Source of the DNA: Chloroflexota bacterium
GTDB taxonomy: Bacteria; Chloroflexota; Anaerolineae; Anaerolineales; UBA4823
Assembly (NCBI GenBank): GCA_030636125.1
Contig: DAOVXM010000162.1
Span: 1 to 6,327, forward strand
Direction of reading: 5' to 3'
Length of the DNA: 6,327 bases
Below are positions 1 through 6,147 of the stretch, piece after piece. The number at the start of each line of letters is the position of its first letter. Position 1 is the stretch's first letter. The notes beneath the pieces are model-generated. The model searched no databases. It worked only from the letters and a program-made list of their open reading frames with translations, and was not told the origin of the DNA. Made by a program: the position numbers and the translations under genes.

Positions 1-1702
1 CCACCTCACCCTTGCGCGCGCTGATAATGAAGTTATAGATCGCGATCAAAACTGCAATGCCGATGATATAGCCTGCAATTGTGACCAATAACTGGCCTGT
101 GTCAACACCTAATTCCGGACCATAAGTGGCGATACGCCGGCGCATACCCATTAGGCCAACCTGCATCTGGCCAAGAGACTGCAGGTAAAAGGCTGGTAGC
201 ATCAAATAGAAGTGCCACTTACCCAACTTCTCGTTATACATACGGCCAGTAATTTTTGGGAACCAGAAGTAAATCGCCGCGAAGAAGGGGAAAACAAATC
301 CACCAAACATGGTGGCGTGGAAGTGTCCCACGATCCAATAGGTATCCTGCACATACAGGTCAGTCGAAACCACGCCGTTAGGCGGACCACTTAGACCACC
401 AAGCAAGAAAATCGAAATGGCACCCACCACAAACAACATAGGTGTCGGGAAGGTCAGTTTTCCTTCCCACATGGTGGCGACCCAACTGAAAAACTTTATA
501 CCTGTAGGAATGGCCACCAATAAGGTGCTGTACATGAATGGTACCCGCAGATAAGGCTCCATCCCGGAGGTGAACATGTGGTGCGCCCACACCAGGAACC
601 CTACCAGGGCAATGGCAAAGGAGGATAGTGCCACCCACTTGTAACCAAATAGGGGTTTGCGGGCGAATACCGGCAAGATTTCACTGATCACACCCAGACC
701 AGTCAGGATAAATACATAAACAGCCGGGTGTGAGTAAAACCAGAATAAGTGCTGGAAGAGAATCGGGTCACCGCCTCCAGCAGGTTCGAAGAAGGTCATA
801 CCCAACAGACGCTCAAAACTGATCATCTGGAAGGAAAGACCGATCAACTGGGTTGCGGTCAGGCTGATGATTGCAGTCGCGAAAGCTGTCCAAACGAAGA
901 TGGGCATACGGAAATAAGTCATACCCGGCGCCCGCATCTTCACAATGGTGACAATAATATTCAAGGAACCGAGTATGGACGAAAGACCGATGAAATAGAC
1001 CCCCCAGAAAAACAGCTGCGTTCCCAGGGGTGCCTGCCAGCTTAAAGGTGGGTATCCCGTCCAACCGGTCTCTAAGCCGCCGAAAAACCATACGCTGGTG
1101 AGCAAGACCGCCGCGGGCACATTGAGCCAATAGGCAAAAGCGTTCAAGCGTGGGAAAGCCATATCGTTGGCGCCGATCATAAGTGGCACTAAATAGTTCG
1201 ACATGGCTGCGACACCTATCAACATCGCCCCGATCATTACAATCCCGTGTAGGGTCATCATTGTATTGAATGTTTGAGGCTCCAGGAAATCATTGGCCGC
1301 TTGAGCAAGCTGGATCCGGAAGGTCAGGGCATATAACCCGGCTAAAGTAAGCAGAAGCAAAGAAGTAACGCCATATTGGATACCGATCACCTTATGATCA
1401 TATGAGACGCTCAAATATTTACGCCAACCTTTAAGCTTGGGATTCACCTCCGGGTCTTCGGGCGTCTCCTCACCCTTTGCCCATTTGATCCAATCATCCA
1501 TCACCCCTGTGCCCAACATGAACCCGATCACACCCACAATCGCACCGACGACCCATACCGGTTCAGGATCCCAGGCGGGTAGCCCCATCAGAAAGCGGGT
1601 CAAGATCACCAGGTCCATCCCGACTAAGGTGCCAAAAACCATGCCGATCAGGCCACCCACGAAACTGATGGAAAATATACCGGTTTTCTCGTTTTCACTC
1701 AT
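1..1702 (-). CDS. ctaD: Cytochrome c oxidase subunit I (A2-type haem-copper oxidase), C-terminus cut by the window edge
   Basis: This is the catalytic subunit of an aa3/caa3 oxidase. It reduces O2 to water at the haem a3-CuB centre and pumps protons across the cytoplasmic membrane. The frame is open for 567 codons from ATG at 1702 and leaves the window at base 1. All metal ligands are present in one frame: H152 and H462 for haem a, H460 for haem a3, and H325, H374 and H375 for CuB, with Y329 placed to crosslink to H325. D180 (GANDMAFPR) marks the D channel; T400 and K403 mark the K channel; R521-R523 match the haem-propionate arginines. YSHPAVY at 323-329 replaces GHPEVY, the A2-subclass signature known from caa3 oxidases. 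Residues 1-95 are an extension with two extra hydrophobic segments (about 11-35 and 47-67) before canonical helix I (about 106-128). Q452 stands where most A-type enzymes have the Mg-site His. The last visible segment (about 536-560) looks like helix XII, so only a tail, or a fused subunit III, is missing. The start is supported by AAGGAG at 1710-1715, overlapping the subunit II stop. Confidence 0.96.
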   Translation of the reverse strand, partial: MSENEKTGIFSISFVGGLIGMVFGTLVGMDLVILTRFLMGLPAWDPEPVWVVGAIVGVIGFMLGTGVMDDWIKWAKGEETPEDPEVNPKLKGWRKYLSVSYDHKVIGIQYGVTSLLLLTLAGLYALTFRIQLAQAANDFLEPQTFNTMMTLHGIVMIGAMLIGVAAMSNYLVPLMIGANDMAFPRLNAFAYWLNVPAAVLLTSVWFFGGLETGWTGYPPLSWQAPLGTQLFFWGVYFIGLSSILGSLNIIVTIVKMRAPGMTYFRMPIFVWTAFATAIISLTATQLIGLSFQMISFERLLGMTFFEPAGGGDPILFQHLFWFYSHPAVYVFILTGLGVISEILPVFARKPLFGYKWVALSSFAIALVGFLVWAHHMFTSGMEPYLRVPFMYSTLLVAIPTGIKFFSWVATMWEGKLTFPTPMLFVVGAISIFLLGGLSGPPNGVVSTDLYVQDTYWIVGHFHATMFGGFVFPFFAAIYFWFPKITGRMYNEKLGKWHFYLMLPAFYLQSLGQMQVGLMGMRRRIATYGPELGVDTGQLLVTIAGYIIGIAVLIAIYNFIISARKGEV

Positions 1703-1709
1703 TGGTATT

Positions 1710-1715
1710 CTCCTT
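1710..1715 (-). promoter_or_regulatory. Ribosome binding site of subunit I, overlapping the subunit II stop codon
   Basis: AAGGAG on the minus strand uses the last two bases of the TAA stop of subunit II. It ends seven bases before the subunit I ATG. It fixes the start that includes the unusual N-terminal extension and suggests coupled translation of the two subunits. Confidence 0.8.
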
Positions 1716-2724
1716 ACTTCAAGCTTTCGATGAAAGCGATAATGTCATCGATTTGATCATCCGTTATGTTGTCTTCACAATAATTAGGCGGCATTATGGC
1801 TTGGAAGCCTTCCACGACCTGCGATGCAGGATCGCAGATTGCCTGATACAGGTATTCGTGATCGGCAACTACCGTCGAACCGTCATCCAAGCTCTCATCC
1901 TTCCCAAATAAACCACTCCAGCTCGGTCCCACACCTTGGCTACCATCTGTGGTATGGCAAGCAAAACAACCATACTGTTCAGCCCACTTCCGGCCTCGTT
2001 CCACTGGATCATCGGATACACCGGATTGTTCAATAACCCAGGCGTCAAAATCGGCTTGTGAAACAACATTTACAGGAGCCACCATCGTGGCATGATTTAA
2101 ACCACACATTTCAGCGCAACGAACAAAGTAATTACCTGATTCAGTCGGTGTGATCCGCAACTCCCTATCAAAGTCTCCCCCTCCCGGCAGGATATCTTGT
2201 TTTACACGGAATTCAGGCACCCAGAATGAGTGGATCACATCTTGAGAAGTGAGACTTAGTAATACTTGCTGGTTCACTGGCAGCCACAACTCGTTTGAGG
2301 TCACACCAAGGTCGGGATATTCGAAGCGCCAGGACCACTGGGAGCCAATTACGTTCACATCCATGGCTTGTGGGTCTATTCGCATGGTTGCAGCTAGCGT
2401 TTGAGCCCCAAAATATGCAAACACAAAGACAGTCGCCAGGGGTGCCAACGTCCAGAAAACTTCCAGACGTGTATTGCCTTCAATATGTTTAGCGTCACTT
2501 GTATCGCCCTTTTTGCGCCGGAATACCACAATACTGTAAACCATCAAAACCACGATTAGGGCGAATAGGAAGATAATTACCTGGAACTCGAGGTTGAACA
2601 TCCAATCGATGGGTTCAGCCTGTGCACTGGCAGCGGCAGGTAATATCTGAACTTGATCCAAACCGATCAAAAGCAAAGCTGTTACGATCACAACCAGTAT
2701 TCCAGCGATGATTAAATGTTTCAT
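1714..2724 (-). CDS. ctaC: Cytochrome c oxidase subunit II with fused C-terminal cytochrome c (caa3-type)
   Basis: This 336-residue subunit accepts electrons from a donor through its own haem c, passes them to CuA and then to haem a in subunit I. An N-terminal signal-like segment (hydrophobic 4-22, possible cleavage after A36 in AQA-EP) is followed by two membrane helices (about 48-68 and 92-112). The exported cupredoxin domain has the aromatic electron-entry patch QWSW (W130) and a complete CuA set: H165, C203, E205, C207, H211 and M214. A cytochrome c domain follows, with CFACH at 253-257 and the likely axial Met at M311 (IMPP). C297 and C316 are two more cysteines flanking the Met loop; they are not part of the usual family pattern and could form a disulfide. 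The start is ATG at 2724, with GAGGAG at 2732-2737 seven bases upstream. Another ATG at 2731-2729 is out of frame. Only 11 bases separate the stop from subunit I, so the two are surely co-transcribed. No convincing promoter is visible upstream, where the first palindromic element lies. Confidence 0.97.
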   Translation of the reverse strand: MKHLIIAGILVVIVTALLLIGLDQVQILPAAASAQAEPIDWMFNLEFQVIIFLFALIVVLMVYSIVVFRRKKGDTSDAKHIEGNTRLEVFWTLAPLATVFVFAYFGAQTLAATMRIDPQAMDVNVIGSQWSWRFEYPDLGVTSNELWLPVNQQVLLSLTSQDVIHSFWVPEFRVKQDILPGGGDFDRELRITPTESGNYFVRCAEMCGLNHATMVAPVNVVSQADFDAWVIEQSGVSDDPVERGRKWAEQYGCFACHTTDGSQGVGPSWSGLFGKDESLDDGSTVVADHEYLYQAICDPASQVVEGFQAIMPPNYCEDNITDDQIDDIIAFIESLK

Positions 2725-2779
2725 GTTTCATCTCCTCGTAATATCTGACTGGTAGATTTATTTTCCTTCAAGTGCACAA

Positions 2780-2901
2780 CTAGTGTTCCGTCAAATGTGA
2801 TTGTTTAGTAAGAAAAGATCGTGGACGGAACACTTTAAGCTTTGTCAAGGGTGTAGCAATCCAGATATCGAATGTAATTTTCATCCTTGACAAAGCACTG
2901 G
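2780..2901 (-). repeat. Palindromic MITE-like element, copy 1
   Basis: This 122-bp non-coding element is built from two hairpins. Hairpin B has perfect 11-base arms, AGTGTTCCGTC (2782-2792) and GACGGAACACT (2824-2834). Hairpin A has perfect 12-base arms, GCTTTGTCAAGG (2839-2850) and CCTTGACAAAGC (2885-2896). They are separated by a short TTAA-containing joint. The reverse complement matches copy 2 at 3369-3489: over the first 78 positions I count 9 differences, while the hairpin B loop is largely unrelated. The left end is CTAGTG; the right end is CACTGG, one base off CACTAG, next to a GCACTG tandem hexamer (2895-2906). It fills the gap between the receiver gene and the subunit II leader, and could act as a transcription or mRNA-stability element there. 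The rest of the 2725-2947 gap shows no gene or clear promoter. Strand is given relative to copy 2. Confidence 0.8.
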
Positions 2902-2947
2902 CACTGTCAATCTCCTAAGCAAATTCACCAATCTAGATTTGTCCGTC

Positions 2948-3322
2948 TCAACCCCTGTCATAAGACCATTCCTCAAACCAGTCATCTATCTGAGTAGCAG
3001 CAAGCGCTCGACGATCATATACAATGGCTTCGCCACCATCCTGTAGCGATAATAAGACCACTCGCAATTTCTTATCGCCCTCGATGAAATGAGCCAGAAA
3101 CTCCTCCCTATTGAGACGTTGGTCGTCATAATCCACAATCACCAGGTCGGGGTTTTGTTTGTCCAGGGCTGCGATGGCTTCCTCAAGATTTGATACAACC
3201 CCAATAATCTCGACATCGGAACCCTTGCGCGCCTCGAGTAAACTGCGCAAACCTTGACCAAACAAGGCATGGTTAGAAGCTATCAAAACGCGCTGGGGAT
3301 ATTTTGGAGTTGCAGAAACCAT
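2948..3322 (-). CDS. Orphan degenerate receiver-domain protein
   Basis: This 124-residue protein resembles a stand-alone response-regulator receiver domain of the NarL/LuxR type. RVLIASNHALFGQGLRSLLE at 11-30 matches the first strand and helix of that family (typically VDDHALFR.GL). PDLVIVD at 58-64 supplies the phosphoacceptor-position Asp, D64, and VVLLS at 88-92 supplies a Ser at the conserved Thr/Ser position. The metal-binding acidic pair is replaced by S16-N17 and the conserved Lys is absent (RR at 104-105). Phosphorylation by the normal route is therefore doubtful, although D64 is kept. There is no DNA-binding domain. The start ATG at 3322 is the only Met, with a weak AGAGA-like ribosome site about 12 bases upstream. 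It is bracketed by two inverted copies of a palindromic element. It could be a pseudo-receiver modulating the neighbouring kinase/regulator pair or the oxidase, or a decaying regulator that has lost its output domain. No function can be assigned. Confidence 0.82.
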   Translation of the reverse strand: MVSATPKYPQRVLIASNHALFGQGLRSLLEARKGSDVEIIGVVSNLEEAIAALDKQNPDLVIVDYDDQRLNREEFLAHFIEGDKKLRVVLLSLQDGGEAIVYDRRALAATQIDDWFEEWSYDRG

Positions 3323-3368
3323 TTTTAGCAGTTATCTCTTTTAATTTCCTACTTGCATTTTTACCTGA

Positions 3369-3489
3369 CTAGTGCTTTGTCAAGGATGAAAGTTTCATTC
3401 GATATCCGAGTTACTACACCCTCGACAAAGCTTAAAGTGTTGCGTCATTGTTACCAAACTATCGAGTCACTTTCGCCGCGCAACACTAG
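3369..3489 (+). repeat. Palindromic MITE-like element, copy 2 (inverted relative to copy 1)
   Basis: This 121-bp element has the same two-hairpin plan as copy 1. Hairpin A arms are GCTTTGTCAAGG (3374-3385) and CCTCGACAAAGC (3420-3431), with one A/C mismatch that becomes a G-U pair in a minus-strand transcript. Hairpin B arms are AGTGTTGCG (3436-3444) and CGCAACACT (3479-3487). Compared with copy 1, the C in the left arm of hairpin B has become G and its partner G has become C, so pairing is kept. Both ends carry CTAG (3369-3372 and 3486-3489), giving a TA repeated on each side, which is the insertion footprint known for IS630/Tc1-mariner-type elements. No transposase is present, so it would be a non-autonomous passenger. 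Confidence 0.8.
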
Positions 3490-3567
3490 ATAATCTATGT
3501 GGTAAGACGAGTTAAATTTACCAAAAGCAGTCGTGATTGTCATCAACCACACCCATTCAAAAAGGTG

Positions 3568-3652: not shown

Positions 3653-4297
3653 TTACTCTTCCTGCCGAATTAGTCCTAAATGAACAGCTTTGCTGACTGC
3701 CTCAGCCCGGTTGGAAGCCTCTAACTTCTCCAAGATATGGCGCACATGTGTCTTGACTGTGTTCTCAGAGATAAATAGATCTGAAGAGACCTGGGAAGTT
3801 GTCTTTCCTTTAGCCAGACAGTGCAACACATCCATCTCCCGGGCGCTCAGACCACGAGTAGATAAGTGAGTTTGGTCAACACTGACCGCTTGCAATACCC
3901 GGCGAGTTACCTCAGGCGCGATCACTGACATCCCTGCATGAACATTAAGGATCGATTTACATAATTCTTCCGGAGAAGCGTTCTTAAGCAAATAACCATC
4001 TGCCCCTGCTGATATTGCTCCAAATAGATCCTCATCATTTTTTGATATGGTCAACATGAGAATACGACAGTCTTCTCTTTTTCCGATCGCCTTGACTGTC
4101 TCAACGCCACCCATCCCCGGCATATTCACGTCCATGAGTACGACGTCTGGTTTAGTCTGGCTTACCAATTCAAGCGCTTCCTTCCCATTGCCAGCCTCAC
4201 CTACCACTTCGAATTCCGACATTCCGGCCAACAAGCTGATCAGCCCTGTGCGGAACAAAGCGTGGTCATCAACTACAACTAAGCGGATCGGTGTCAT
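3653..4297 (-). CDS. NarL/FixJ-family response regulator (receiver plus LuxR-type HTH)
   Basis: This 214-residue cytoplasmic transcription regulator is activated by phosphorylation. The receiver domain (about 4-120) has the full active site: acidic pair D10-D11, phosphoacceptor D56 in VVLMD, T83 and K105 in GYLLK. The C-terminal LuxR-type helix-turn-helix (about 148-205) starts with LSAREMDVL, and its recognition region is ISENTVKTHVRHILEKL. The length is typical of the family. The start ATG at 4297 overlaps the TGA stop of the kinase (ATGA, 4294-4297), with a strong purine-rich ribosome site (GGAGGGAG) inside the kinase 3' end. Translation is therefore probably coupled, and the kinase is its cognate partner. 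Targets cannot be read from the sequence. The downstream oxidase genes and its own operon promoter are reasonable candidates by position only. Confidence 0.95.
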   Translation of the reverse strand: MTPIRLVVVDDHALFRTGLISLLAGMSEFEVVGEAGNGKEALELVSQTKPDVVLMDVNMPGMGGVETVKAIGKREDCRILMLTISKNDEDLFGAISAGADGYLLKNASPEELCKSILNVHAGMSVIAPEVTRRVLQAVSVDQTHLSTRGLSAREMDVLHCLAKGKTTSQVSSDLFISENTVKTHVRHILEKLEASNRAEAVSKAVHLGLIRQEE

Positions 4298-6147
4298 GCC
4301 TCTCCCTCCTTAACGGTCAACGGCAATCTAACCCTGACAGTTGTCCCTATTTGAGGTTGACTGATCACCTGGAAATCTGCTCCGATCAAATCTGCCCGTT
4401 CACGCATTCCGCGCAATCCATGCTGTGAAGAACCTGGGATATCCTCGGATAAAAATCCAATCCCATCATCACGAATCTCAATGATTATATCCGTTTCGCT
4501 TTGAAAACAAGAAATCTCAATCTCACGGGCATGAGCGTGTTTACGAATATTATTTAAGGCTTCCTGTACAATCCGAATTAGCTGGGCTTGTACCTCTGGT
4601 GCCAGGGAAATCACCATATCAGCATCATGGACTGAAACTGAAATATCATTATAATCCTGGAATTCAGCCACGGTTTGTCCCAACCAACCTGCCAGCCCGT
4701 TCTCTGAAGGTGAGATACGTAATCCATCGATCGCTTGGCGAGCATCCTGGTAAGCGTCACTCAATACTTCATGGCAGACATTTATGGTATCCCGTATCAG
4801 GTCAAGCTCACCCCGATCTAAATAATTCTGTGCCTGGGCAGATTTTAACTTTAAAAACCCCAGAGTTTGTGCCAAACCATCATGGATTTCACGGGCCAAA
4901 CGCGTCCGTTCATCCATCATGGTGCGATACTCAAGCTGAGCCATCAAATCAACATTCTGAACGACCAAAGCTGCCTGTCCCGCCACGGTCTGAAGGAAGG
5001 ATAACTGCTGGTTGGTGAAGGCTTTGGCGCGCCGGTTTGCTATCAATATAGCTCCTATGGTATTTTGGTCCTGGAGGGCTAATGGAACTGCCATTAATGA
5101 GCGAAACCCGGGTGGAGAGGCTGAATTCCCAGACACTTTTCCAAAAATGACCGGCTCCCTTGAACTTATCACGCTGCGCAATATACCCTCAACCAAAGCC
5201 TGCGTATTGTCAGGAAGCTCTCCACTTGTAATGGTTTCTTTGGGTTCGTCGACTTTCCTATCCCAGGTAGCCACAAGAGCGTAATCAGCATCCAAGGTAT
5301 CGCGCAAGTTCTCCAACAAATCAGAAAATAACGCGTTCAGGTTAGTCCTATCTCGCACAGACTGTAACTGGCGCAGCGTTGAAATAGCCCGATTCCTTAA
5401 ACGCACACCTTCCAACGCCGAAGTTGTTTCATCCAATAGTGCCCGCAAAACTGTCTGAATTTCCGGGTCTAATCCCTCGTTACGAGGGACGTACAAGTTT
5501 AATACACCGTATTCCTGATCCCCGCGATGTAGGGATAAACAATAGACACCCTTTGTATCCAAGAAAGTTTCAGTAAGCAGTGGGCAAGCATGTGTCAATT
5601 GCTCAATGTCTTGACAAGAGCCACACTTCTGCCTGACTAACGGGGAGGCCAGATACTCAATCCAGGCTTCAGCTACGGGGAAAGGCATCTCTCCCACGCT
5701 CATTGCCGAAAGCGGCTGGGAGCGTTCATCCAAAGGCACGAATGAAGCCCCATCCGCTCCAACCAGCTCCATCGAAAGGCGCAAGATTAAATCGACCACA
5801 TCATCTTGATCATCAGCTTCAGCAAACATCTGGCTGATCTGAAAGATCGTTTTGTGGCGTTGATGGGCTGCAGTCAGTTGCCTTTCAGTGTCTTCAAGTC
5901 GTTGTTGTAACAAAGAGCGCTCTTTGGATAATCGCAAAATACGCCCGAACCCCAGATACACGATCACTCCAATCACTACTAAAACCAGCATATCCAGAGC
6001 AATCCAGGCTGGACGGGATAGACGCACCAACCAGGTTGTTTCGATGATCACATATATTAAAATGATCGCCAAAATCAACCCGGCTAAGAACAAAGGCAGC
6101 CAGCGATGGCGACGAATCGTTTGGGTCTGTTGATCGGAAACACTCAC
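4294..6147 (-). CDS. Membrane-anchored NarL-type sensor histidine kinase with two GAF-like regions and a cysteine cluster
   Basis: This 617-residue kinase autophosphorylates on His and passes the phosphate to the response regulator encoded immediately downstream. Two membrane helices (about 17-36 and 47-68) with only a short segment between them leave almost nothing outside the cell, so sensing is probably cytoplasmic or within the membrane. A likely coiled coil (about 70-100) leads to a divergent GAF-like region (about 101-250), then a more typical GAF (about 265-400). A HisKA_3 dimerisation domain follows, with REIHDGLAQTLG holding phospho-His H422, and then an HATPase domain with the N box (QEALNN, N532-N533), DDGIGF (560-565) and GLRGMRERA (577-585). 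The first GAF-like region contains C175, C178, C188 and C203, a spacing reminiscent of Fe-S or redox-sensing kinases. The start is GTG at 6147: it is the first start codon after an in-frame TAA at 6159-6157, and no ATG occurs before M53. No good Shine-Dalgarno precedes it. The signal is not known. Confidence 0.93.
   Translation of the reverse strand: MSVSDQQTQTIRRHRWLPLFLAGLILAIILIYVIIETTWLVRLSRPAWIALDMLVLVVIGVIVYLGFGRILRLSKERSLLQQRLEDTERQLTAAHQRHKTIFQISQMFAEADDQDDVVDLILRLSMELVGADGASFVPLDERSQPLSAMSVGEMPFPVAEAWIEYLASPLVRQKCGSCQDIEQLTHACPLLTETFLDTKGVYCLSLHRGDQEYGVLNLYVPRNEGLDPEIQTVLRALLDETTSALEGVRLRNRAISTLRQLQSVRDRTNLNALFSDLLENLRDTLDADYALVATWDRKVDEPKETITSGELPDNTQALVEGILRSVISSREPVIFGKVSGNSASPPGFRSLMAVPLALQDQNTIGAILIANRRAKAFTNQQLSFLQTVAGQAALVVQNVDLMAQLEYRTMMDERTRLAREIHDGLAQTLGFLKLKSAQAQNYLDRGELDLIRDTINVCHEVLSDAYQDARQAIDGLRISPSENGLAGWLGQTVAEFQDYNDISVSVHDADMVISLAPEVQAQLIRIVQEALNNIRKHAHAREIEISCFQSETDIIIEIRDDGIGFLSEDIPGSSQHGLRGMRERADLIGADFQVISQPQIGTTVRVRLPLTVKEGEA

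Follow-up and report, generated by a model that had tools for sequence, protein, structure and literature searches.

A probable MITE-like family of two-hairpin repeats in Chloroflexota, with CTAG-type flanking repeats and covarying stems

MITEPsy1 from Pseudomonas syringae and the CcrM-associated intergenic repeats (CIR) from Caulobacter and Brucella are among the known repeats closest to the element analyzed here. According to the description of MITEPsy1 in PMC3189936, this element has a CTAG-type target duplication, terminal repeats of 18 nt and a suggested parent, ISPsy2. The Chloroflexota family shares the CTAG-type duplication, although its terminal repeats are about 12 nt long, imperfect and different in sequence, it carries two hairpins, and no parent has been found for it. 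On the other hand, the CIR, as outlined in PMC2229807, are alphaproteobacterial intergenic elements with two long inverted repeats or arms, a linker between them and a GANTC motif at a loop. The same two-armed plan and intergenic location are found in the Chloroflexota family; however, in this comparison by description, GANTC is not conserved, being located anywhere in the element in 40 of 67 copies and absent from 27 of 67. Moreover, the Chloroflexota family has a 4-bp direct repeat, a feature marked as unknown for CIR in the same source (PMC2229807). RUP, ERIC, Correia/NEMIS and YPAL are also short foldable non-autonomous repeats in the account of PMC2229807, several of them with target duplications (3-26 bp in YPAL, which contains internal inverted repeats). 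As presented there, the repeats other than CIR form a stem-loop by pairing of their 5' and 3' ends and mostly have TA ends, whereas in the Chloroflexota family the two hairpins fold separately and the 4-mer resembles CTAG. This family combines the traits of a CTAG-duplicating MITE with those of a CIR-like two-armed repeat, each of them already known. A search of the open-access literature retrieved no description of it, and it would add a mobile-repeat family to Chloroflexota.

All the genes called in the window, that is, the whole stretch of 6327 bases that was analyzed, are on the minus strand (Table 1). Two elements of about 121 nt, with their 4-mers included, flank the REC-like ORF and are inverted relative to each other (3369-3489 on the plus strand and 2780-2901 on the minus strand), one in the 330-nt gap between the regulator and the REC-like ORF and the other in the 223-nt gap between this ORF and cox2. 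These are the two inverted two-hairpin copies that a sequence-only reading had located, and their presence was corroborated by the sequence, by an inverted-repeat search of the window (arms 2824-2899 and 3371-3446, 76 nt, 89% complementary) and by folding. The ranges given in that reading include four flanking bases at each end, so that the element proper corresponds to the shorter ranges of Table 1. With DNA parameters, each strand of both copies folds better than all of its 200 dinucleotide-preserving shuffles, with z values from -4.2 to -5.8 (-4.97 and -5.80 for the two strands of copy 1, and -4.43 and -4.21 for those of copy 2). In both copies, the two outermost pairs of hairpin B extend into the flanking 4-mer. 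A comparison of the arms of this hairpin reveals the C-G to G-C change between copies that had been noted, which the tree reconstruction places on the window branch. Also, the G-U pair announced for hairpin A corresponds to one pair that is A-T in copy 1 and A-C in copy 2 in the alignment orientation, the last one being G-U on the opposite strand.

Table 1. Positions of the genes and of the parts of the two elements in the window. Both copies were among the 12 that built the covariance model.
Feature	Position	Strand	Basis or remark
GAF-domain sensor kinase	4294-6147	-	
LuxR-type response regulator	3653-4297	-	
REC-like ORF	2948-3322	-	28.4 bits to PF00072, slightly below cut-off
cox2 with cytochrome c domain	1714-2724	-	
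cox1	2-1702	-	
Copy 1, element proper, 114 nt without flanking 4-mers	2784-2897	-	covariance-model match 2780-2901, 133.1 bits
Hairpin A, copy 1	2839-2896; arms 2839-2853 and 2882-2896	-	inverted repeat, 15-nt arms, 93% complementary
Hairpin B, copy 1	2782-2834; arms 2782-2790 and 2826-2834, AGTGTTCCG/CGGAACACT	-	sequence, fold
Copy 1 flanking 4-mer CTAG, 3' side in element orientation	2780-2783		sequence; family direct-repeat test
Copy 1 flanking 4-mer CCAG (minus strand), 5' side in element orientation	2898-2901		sequence; family direct-repeat test
Copy 2, element proper, 113 nt without flanking 4-mers	3373-3485	+	covariance-model match 3369-3489, 107.2 bits
Hairpin A, copy 2	3374-3431; arms 3374-3388 and 3417-3431	+	sequence; consensus structure
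Hairpin B, copy 2	3436-3487; arms 3436-3444 and 3479-3487, AGTGTTGCG/CGCAACACT	+	sequence
Copy 2 flanking 4-mer CTAG, 5' side	3369-3372		sequence; family direct-repeat test
Copy 2 flanking 4-mer CTAG, 3' side	3486-3489		sequence; family direct-repeat test

The 18-nt joint between the hairpins, identical in both window copies, was the seed query of the family search. It gave 15 exact matches in genome contigs, 10 corresponding to whole elements (L003, L004, L006, L007, L008, L010, L012, L013, L014 and L015) and five that do not; eight of the whole elements are in MAGs named Chloroflexi or Anaerolineales. A covariance model made from these 10 elements and the two window copies was run on their seven source genomes, all of which match it by construction. 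When fragments are counted, the model gives 32 rows in G001 and 37 in G002. Full-length copies that could be aligned amount to 67, coming from the window and nine genomes (the source genomes plus G411 and G440): 27 from G002, 25 from G001, three each from G006 and G440, two each from the window, G004 and G007, and one each from G003, G005 and G411. Both copy-rich genomes are Chloroflexota MAGs. With 65 full-length copies in nine genomes other than that of the window, the proposal of a dispersed element family holds. This 67-copy set was used for covariation, tree, placement and ends, and a 63-copy set, obtained after dropping 19 of 82 model matches (fragments, reverse-strand echoes and solo hairpins), for the direct-versus-inverted 4-mer test, the G-T/A-C counts and the gene orientation.

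The elements are 118-124 nt long including the 4-mers, with about 114 nt between them, a length from which they would be non-coding, and they are organized as two successive hairpins with a short linker. Their spread is patchy, being present in four of 41 genomes among the relatives of G002, in the identical four among those of G004 and in one of 41 near G428; in a class-wide model search the element appears in at least one of 396 genomes, a lower bound because the filters were strict and the scoring was restricted to nine candidates in each genome. The hairpin joint has no matches in viral stretches. The two element ends match 5 and 29 of them, and these matches are read as chance because none of the 34 stretches has a covariance-model match. 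Plasmid (copy 2) and phage (copy 1) searches gave short weak matches only. Two single copies, L007:6357-6476 and L012:554-675, come from MAGs with CSMAG isolate names, labelled Alphaproteobacteria and Sumerlaeota, and both contigs are short; mis-binned Chloroflexota contigs or horizontal spread are both possible. Variants of the element are also observed. In G002, L097:378-432 and L101:2234-2285 consist of hairpin B only, and L096:1310-1375 retains hairpin B and apparently lost hairpin A by an internal deletion. In G001, L122:2501-2597 (approximate) is a palindrome with only one hairpin, whose ends resemble those of the element (CTAGTGTTCAGTCAAAC...GTTGACTGACCACTAG), possibly a sister family.

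The surroundings of the copies are those of mobile DNA. None of the 2211 copy pairs shares a 14-mer in the 100-bp flanks, and such unrelated flanks indicate that the spread was not by large duplications. CTAG is the commonest flanking 4-mer, present on at least one side in 43 of the 67 copies. The 4-mers of both sides are identical in 27 copies (p about 1e-4) and non-identical in 40, and 53 of the 67 share the fourth base (p about 5e-5). As CTAG is palindromic, the argument for direct repeats rests on the non-CTAG 4-mers, and the 27 identical cases comprise 19 CTAG and eight others (CTAA, CTAC twice, CTAT twice, CTGG and CCAG twice). In the 63-copy set, the direct match of the 4-mers exceeds that of shuffles (p about 1e-4), with positions 3 and 4 being significant and 1 and 2 not, whereas for the inverted match the overall p value is 0.28, with 0.006 for the third position alone. 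The ends follow roughly TG[CT]T[CT][CT]GTC.AA and form imperfect terminal inverted repeats of about 12 bp, where a mean of 7.2 of 12 positions match (range 5-10) versus 3.2 for shuffled letters; in window copy 2, 5 of 12 match. Thus, the family displays several of the features that define a MITE, being short, apparently non-coding and dispersed among unrelated flanks, with a target site duplication and terminal inverted repeats, these last imperfect.

Placement relative to genes was also evaluated, with genes called as hexamer-scored ORFs. None of the 67 copies is inside a called ORF, compared with 278 of 379 other CTAG sites (Fisher p about 2e-33), these controls being taken from the window and loci L046-L128, some of which overlap. 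Adjacent ORFs frequently extend a few codons into the element, and one called ORF (L085) starts inside. The stop codon of a neighbour falls within the flanking 4-mer in 19 of the 67 copies versus 17 of 101 CTAG sites outside gene interiors, an excess that is not significant (p 0.086), so that a preference for CTAG together with the loss of in-gene insertions may suffice. The copies with such a stop codon illustrate how an element that duplicates CTAG fits compact genomes with little damage. Regarding orientation, the neighbours show no preferred sense relative to the element (n=63: ++ 21, -- 19, -+ 11, +- 10 and two incomplete).

Two sets of relatives provide loci without the element, although their intergenic DNA has diverged and the comparison is not base-exact. 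None of six fetched loci related to the window's kinase carries the element by the covariance model (E up to 1), and three of them (L220, L222 and L223) keep the kinase-regulator-REC-cox2-cox1 order, with regulator-to-REC gaps of 228, 126 and 32 nt according to the hexamer-scored ORF calls. The sharper case is L052, from G002, in which the element occupies precisely the space separating a glycosyltransferase gene from a convergent rsmA-type gene; the left CTAG contains the stop codon of one of these genes and the right CTAA that of its neighbour. Among 29 loci related to this glycosyltransferase, 20 include an rsmA-type gene in the fetched stretch, convergent in every case. In 17 of these the two genes overlap or their stop codons are at most 41 nt apart, and in the other three the gap is 100, 151 and 538 nt. 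The covariance model matches none of the 29 loci. The idea that the two window copies form a composite transposon was discarded, since the REC region is in the same place in three element-free relatives. As a separate observation, REC and COX2 are in one uninterrupted ORF in the three order-keeping relatives (L222:7161-8624 and L223:6823-8343 on the plus strand, L220:4831-6258 on the minus strand); in the window, the REC-like region and cox2 are separate ORFs with copy 1 between them. The REC-like region of the three long ORFs is weak, with Pfam REC giving no match at E 0.001 in L223 and scoring below its cut-off in the other two. Each long ORF may be a true REC-COX2 fusion or a read-through to an internal start, where MKH is kept.

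Taken together, the many copies with unrelated flanks, the 4-bp direct repeats favouring CTAG, the element-free loci of relatives, the placement outside ORFs and the covarying stems make it very probable that this is a MITE-like family of non-autonomous, non-coding mobile elements. In this scheme, the DDE-type transposase of a partner element would move the copies in trans and insert them into CTAG-like sites, with duplication of 4 bp. Insertions within genes would be lost, and where the CTAG contains a stop codon the duplication would leave it intact. The pairing would be kept chiefly in the lineages that yield new copies, the resident copies then mostly decaying, and the reason could be either an aid to mobility or repair by template switching between the arms.

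The moving enzyme is a putative one, because the searches of draft genomes detected no transposase with the ends of the element; insertion sequences are often missing from MAG assemblies. Allowing one mismatch in the end pattern, no inverted pair around a transposase was seen in five genomes among the matches listed, which are complete for G001, G002 and G007 (for G004 and G006 only the matches listed were considered, and pairs were judged by eye). In the first ~150 bases of each of 13 further end matches, one related single-hairpin palindrome was recognized (L122), and the rest look like fragments or chance. IS481 elements favour CTAG, and the TG..CA ends and CTAG targets presumably resemble this group. 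Of 27 IS481 matches, 20 had loci, and the IS481-like genes scanned lack these ends. Facing end pairs at L139 and L150 (up to two mismatches) were attributed to chance, one of them not being around a transposase and the flanks of L139 being neither CTAG-like nor matching. DDE_5 and DDE_Tnp_1 are absent from G001, G002 and G007, and ten G004/G006 loci have no facing pair. For the G007 relatives, the exact end pattern is present in 6 of 61, with no facing pair.

The covariation of the stems exceeds what is expected by chance. In the 67-copy alignment, 92.0% of the stem cells are paired, in comparison with 34-42% when the partners are slid 1-3 columns. Both-sided changes affect 14 of 25 pairs, a number reached by 5 of 500 shuffles; doubly changed cells number 105, whereas the shuffles average 32 and none of them reaches 105. 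This alignment was fitted to the structure; hence, the 55 copies outside the model were realigned using MAFFT without structure, where 90.0% of the stem cells are paired (36.2-43.5% when slid) and 85 are doubly changed (shuffle mean 29, maximum 41). Moreover, on a tree built from unpaired columns only, 16 switches between standard pairs in which the two sides change on one branch were reconstructed, against 0-2 in the slid controls, and these occur in G001, G002, G003, G005, G007, G440 and the window. The arms thus covary beyond both types of control, shuffled and slid partners, and in genomes other than that of the window there are further copies whose arms covary, in line with the sequence-only reading.

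Single stem changes in the main G002 subfamily (22 copies) amount to 46 from a paired consensus, 31 breaking and 15 keeping the pair, and one of its two doubly changed cells is still paired; in a G001 subfamily (14 copies) four break and five keep the pair. The rate of change at stem positions is about half that at unpaired ones (4.8 versus 9.1% and 3.4 versus 7.8% in the two subfamilies), a difference that may come from subfamily layers in the loops or from a real constraint, so that some selection on resident copies is conceivable.

A serious candidate to explain this covariation, with somewhat less than an even chance of being right, is that the element is mobile but the pairing of its arms gives no information on function, replication template switching copying the changes between the arms of a quasi-palindrome. 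The mechanism is a known one, and in the summary of PMC8794818 template switching makes and maintains hairpins with compensatory changes. The tip branches fit with it, because their single stem changes mostly break the pair (72 versus 50 that keep it), yet 11 of 15 double changes end paired, leaving four without pairing; on an internal branch, one change turns an unpaired state into a paired one. The lack of an overall preferred strand is also in agreement. However, the presence of both hairpins in every subfamily would be left unexplained, and no loop inversion was noticed among the copies in a non-systematic inspection. As this proposal concerns the covariation only, it is compatible with the MITE-like element.

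It is rather unlikely, on the other hand, that movement acts directly on the paired hairpins. The family would then be a DDE-type element in which the transposase, or else a host factor, requires both ends to be extruded into a hairpin or a cruciform. If this were the case, selection would act during mobility and not at the host locus, and would lead to RNA-like covariation in a DNA element with 4-bp CTAG duplications.

The sequence-only reading had suggested that the folded form, in RNA or single-stranded DNA, is what has been kept. The stem covariation agrees with a kept fold, for which a single-stranded or cruciform DNA form is possible, but the RNA side of the proposal finds little agreement, given the unbiased orientation, the mostly broken pairs of resident copies and the G-T and A-C counts. 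Consequently, a conserved cis-acting or small RNA family, with the RNA fold selected at each locus, is very improbable, even though the strong covariation of two stems across genomes and the fewer changes at stem than at unpaired positions would be in its favour. Selection for one RNA sense is expected to give more G-U than A-C on that strand. This is what hairpin B presents in the element sense (62 G-T versus 20 A-C cells), with 46 of the 62 coming from two pairs; nonetheless, hairpin A leans the opposite way (18 versus 40), and counting by pair and genome gives 30 G-T versus 33 A-C. It is the absence of both an orientation bias and a consistent G-U versus A-C asymmetry that makes an RNA function so doubtful. 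Also, single stem changes in the G002 subfamily mostly break pairs, and there is no Rfam match for the window at the gathering score nor for 2700-3560 at E up to 1. Such an RNA does not predict direct repeats or empty loci, and the 4-bp direct repeats together with the element-free loci of relatives support a transposable element rather than a conserved RNA. This case calls for caution, since a dispersed DNA element without preferred orientation can covary strongly and covariation alone does not amount to RNA function.

REPs are palindromes with a tetranucleotide tag, mobilized by Y1 (RAYT) transposases. The poorest candidate is a REP/BIME-like repeat of this type, which is scarcely credible despite the two hairpins, the non-ORF placement and the solo hairpin-B copies of G002 (L097 and L101), because the ends carry 4-bp direct repeats, which Y1 movement is not known to leave. 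Moreover, comparing by length only, the element has ~114 nt and REPs have 20-40 bp in PMC3733652.

Finally, the two inverted copies of the window are 89% complementary over 76 nt and lie on both sides of the REC-like ORF, and a transcript spanning this ORF could pair with itself into a long duplex.
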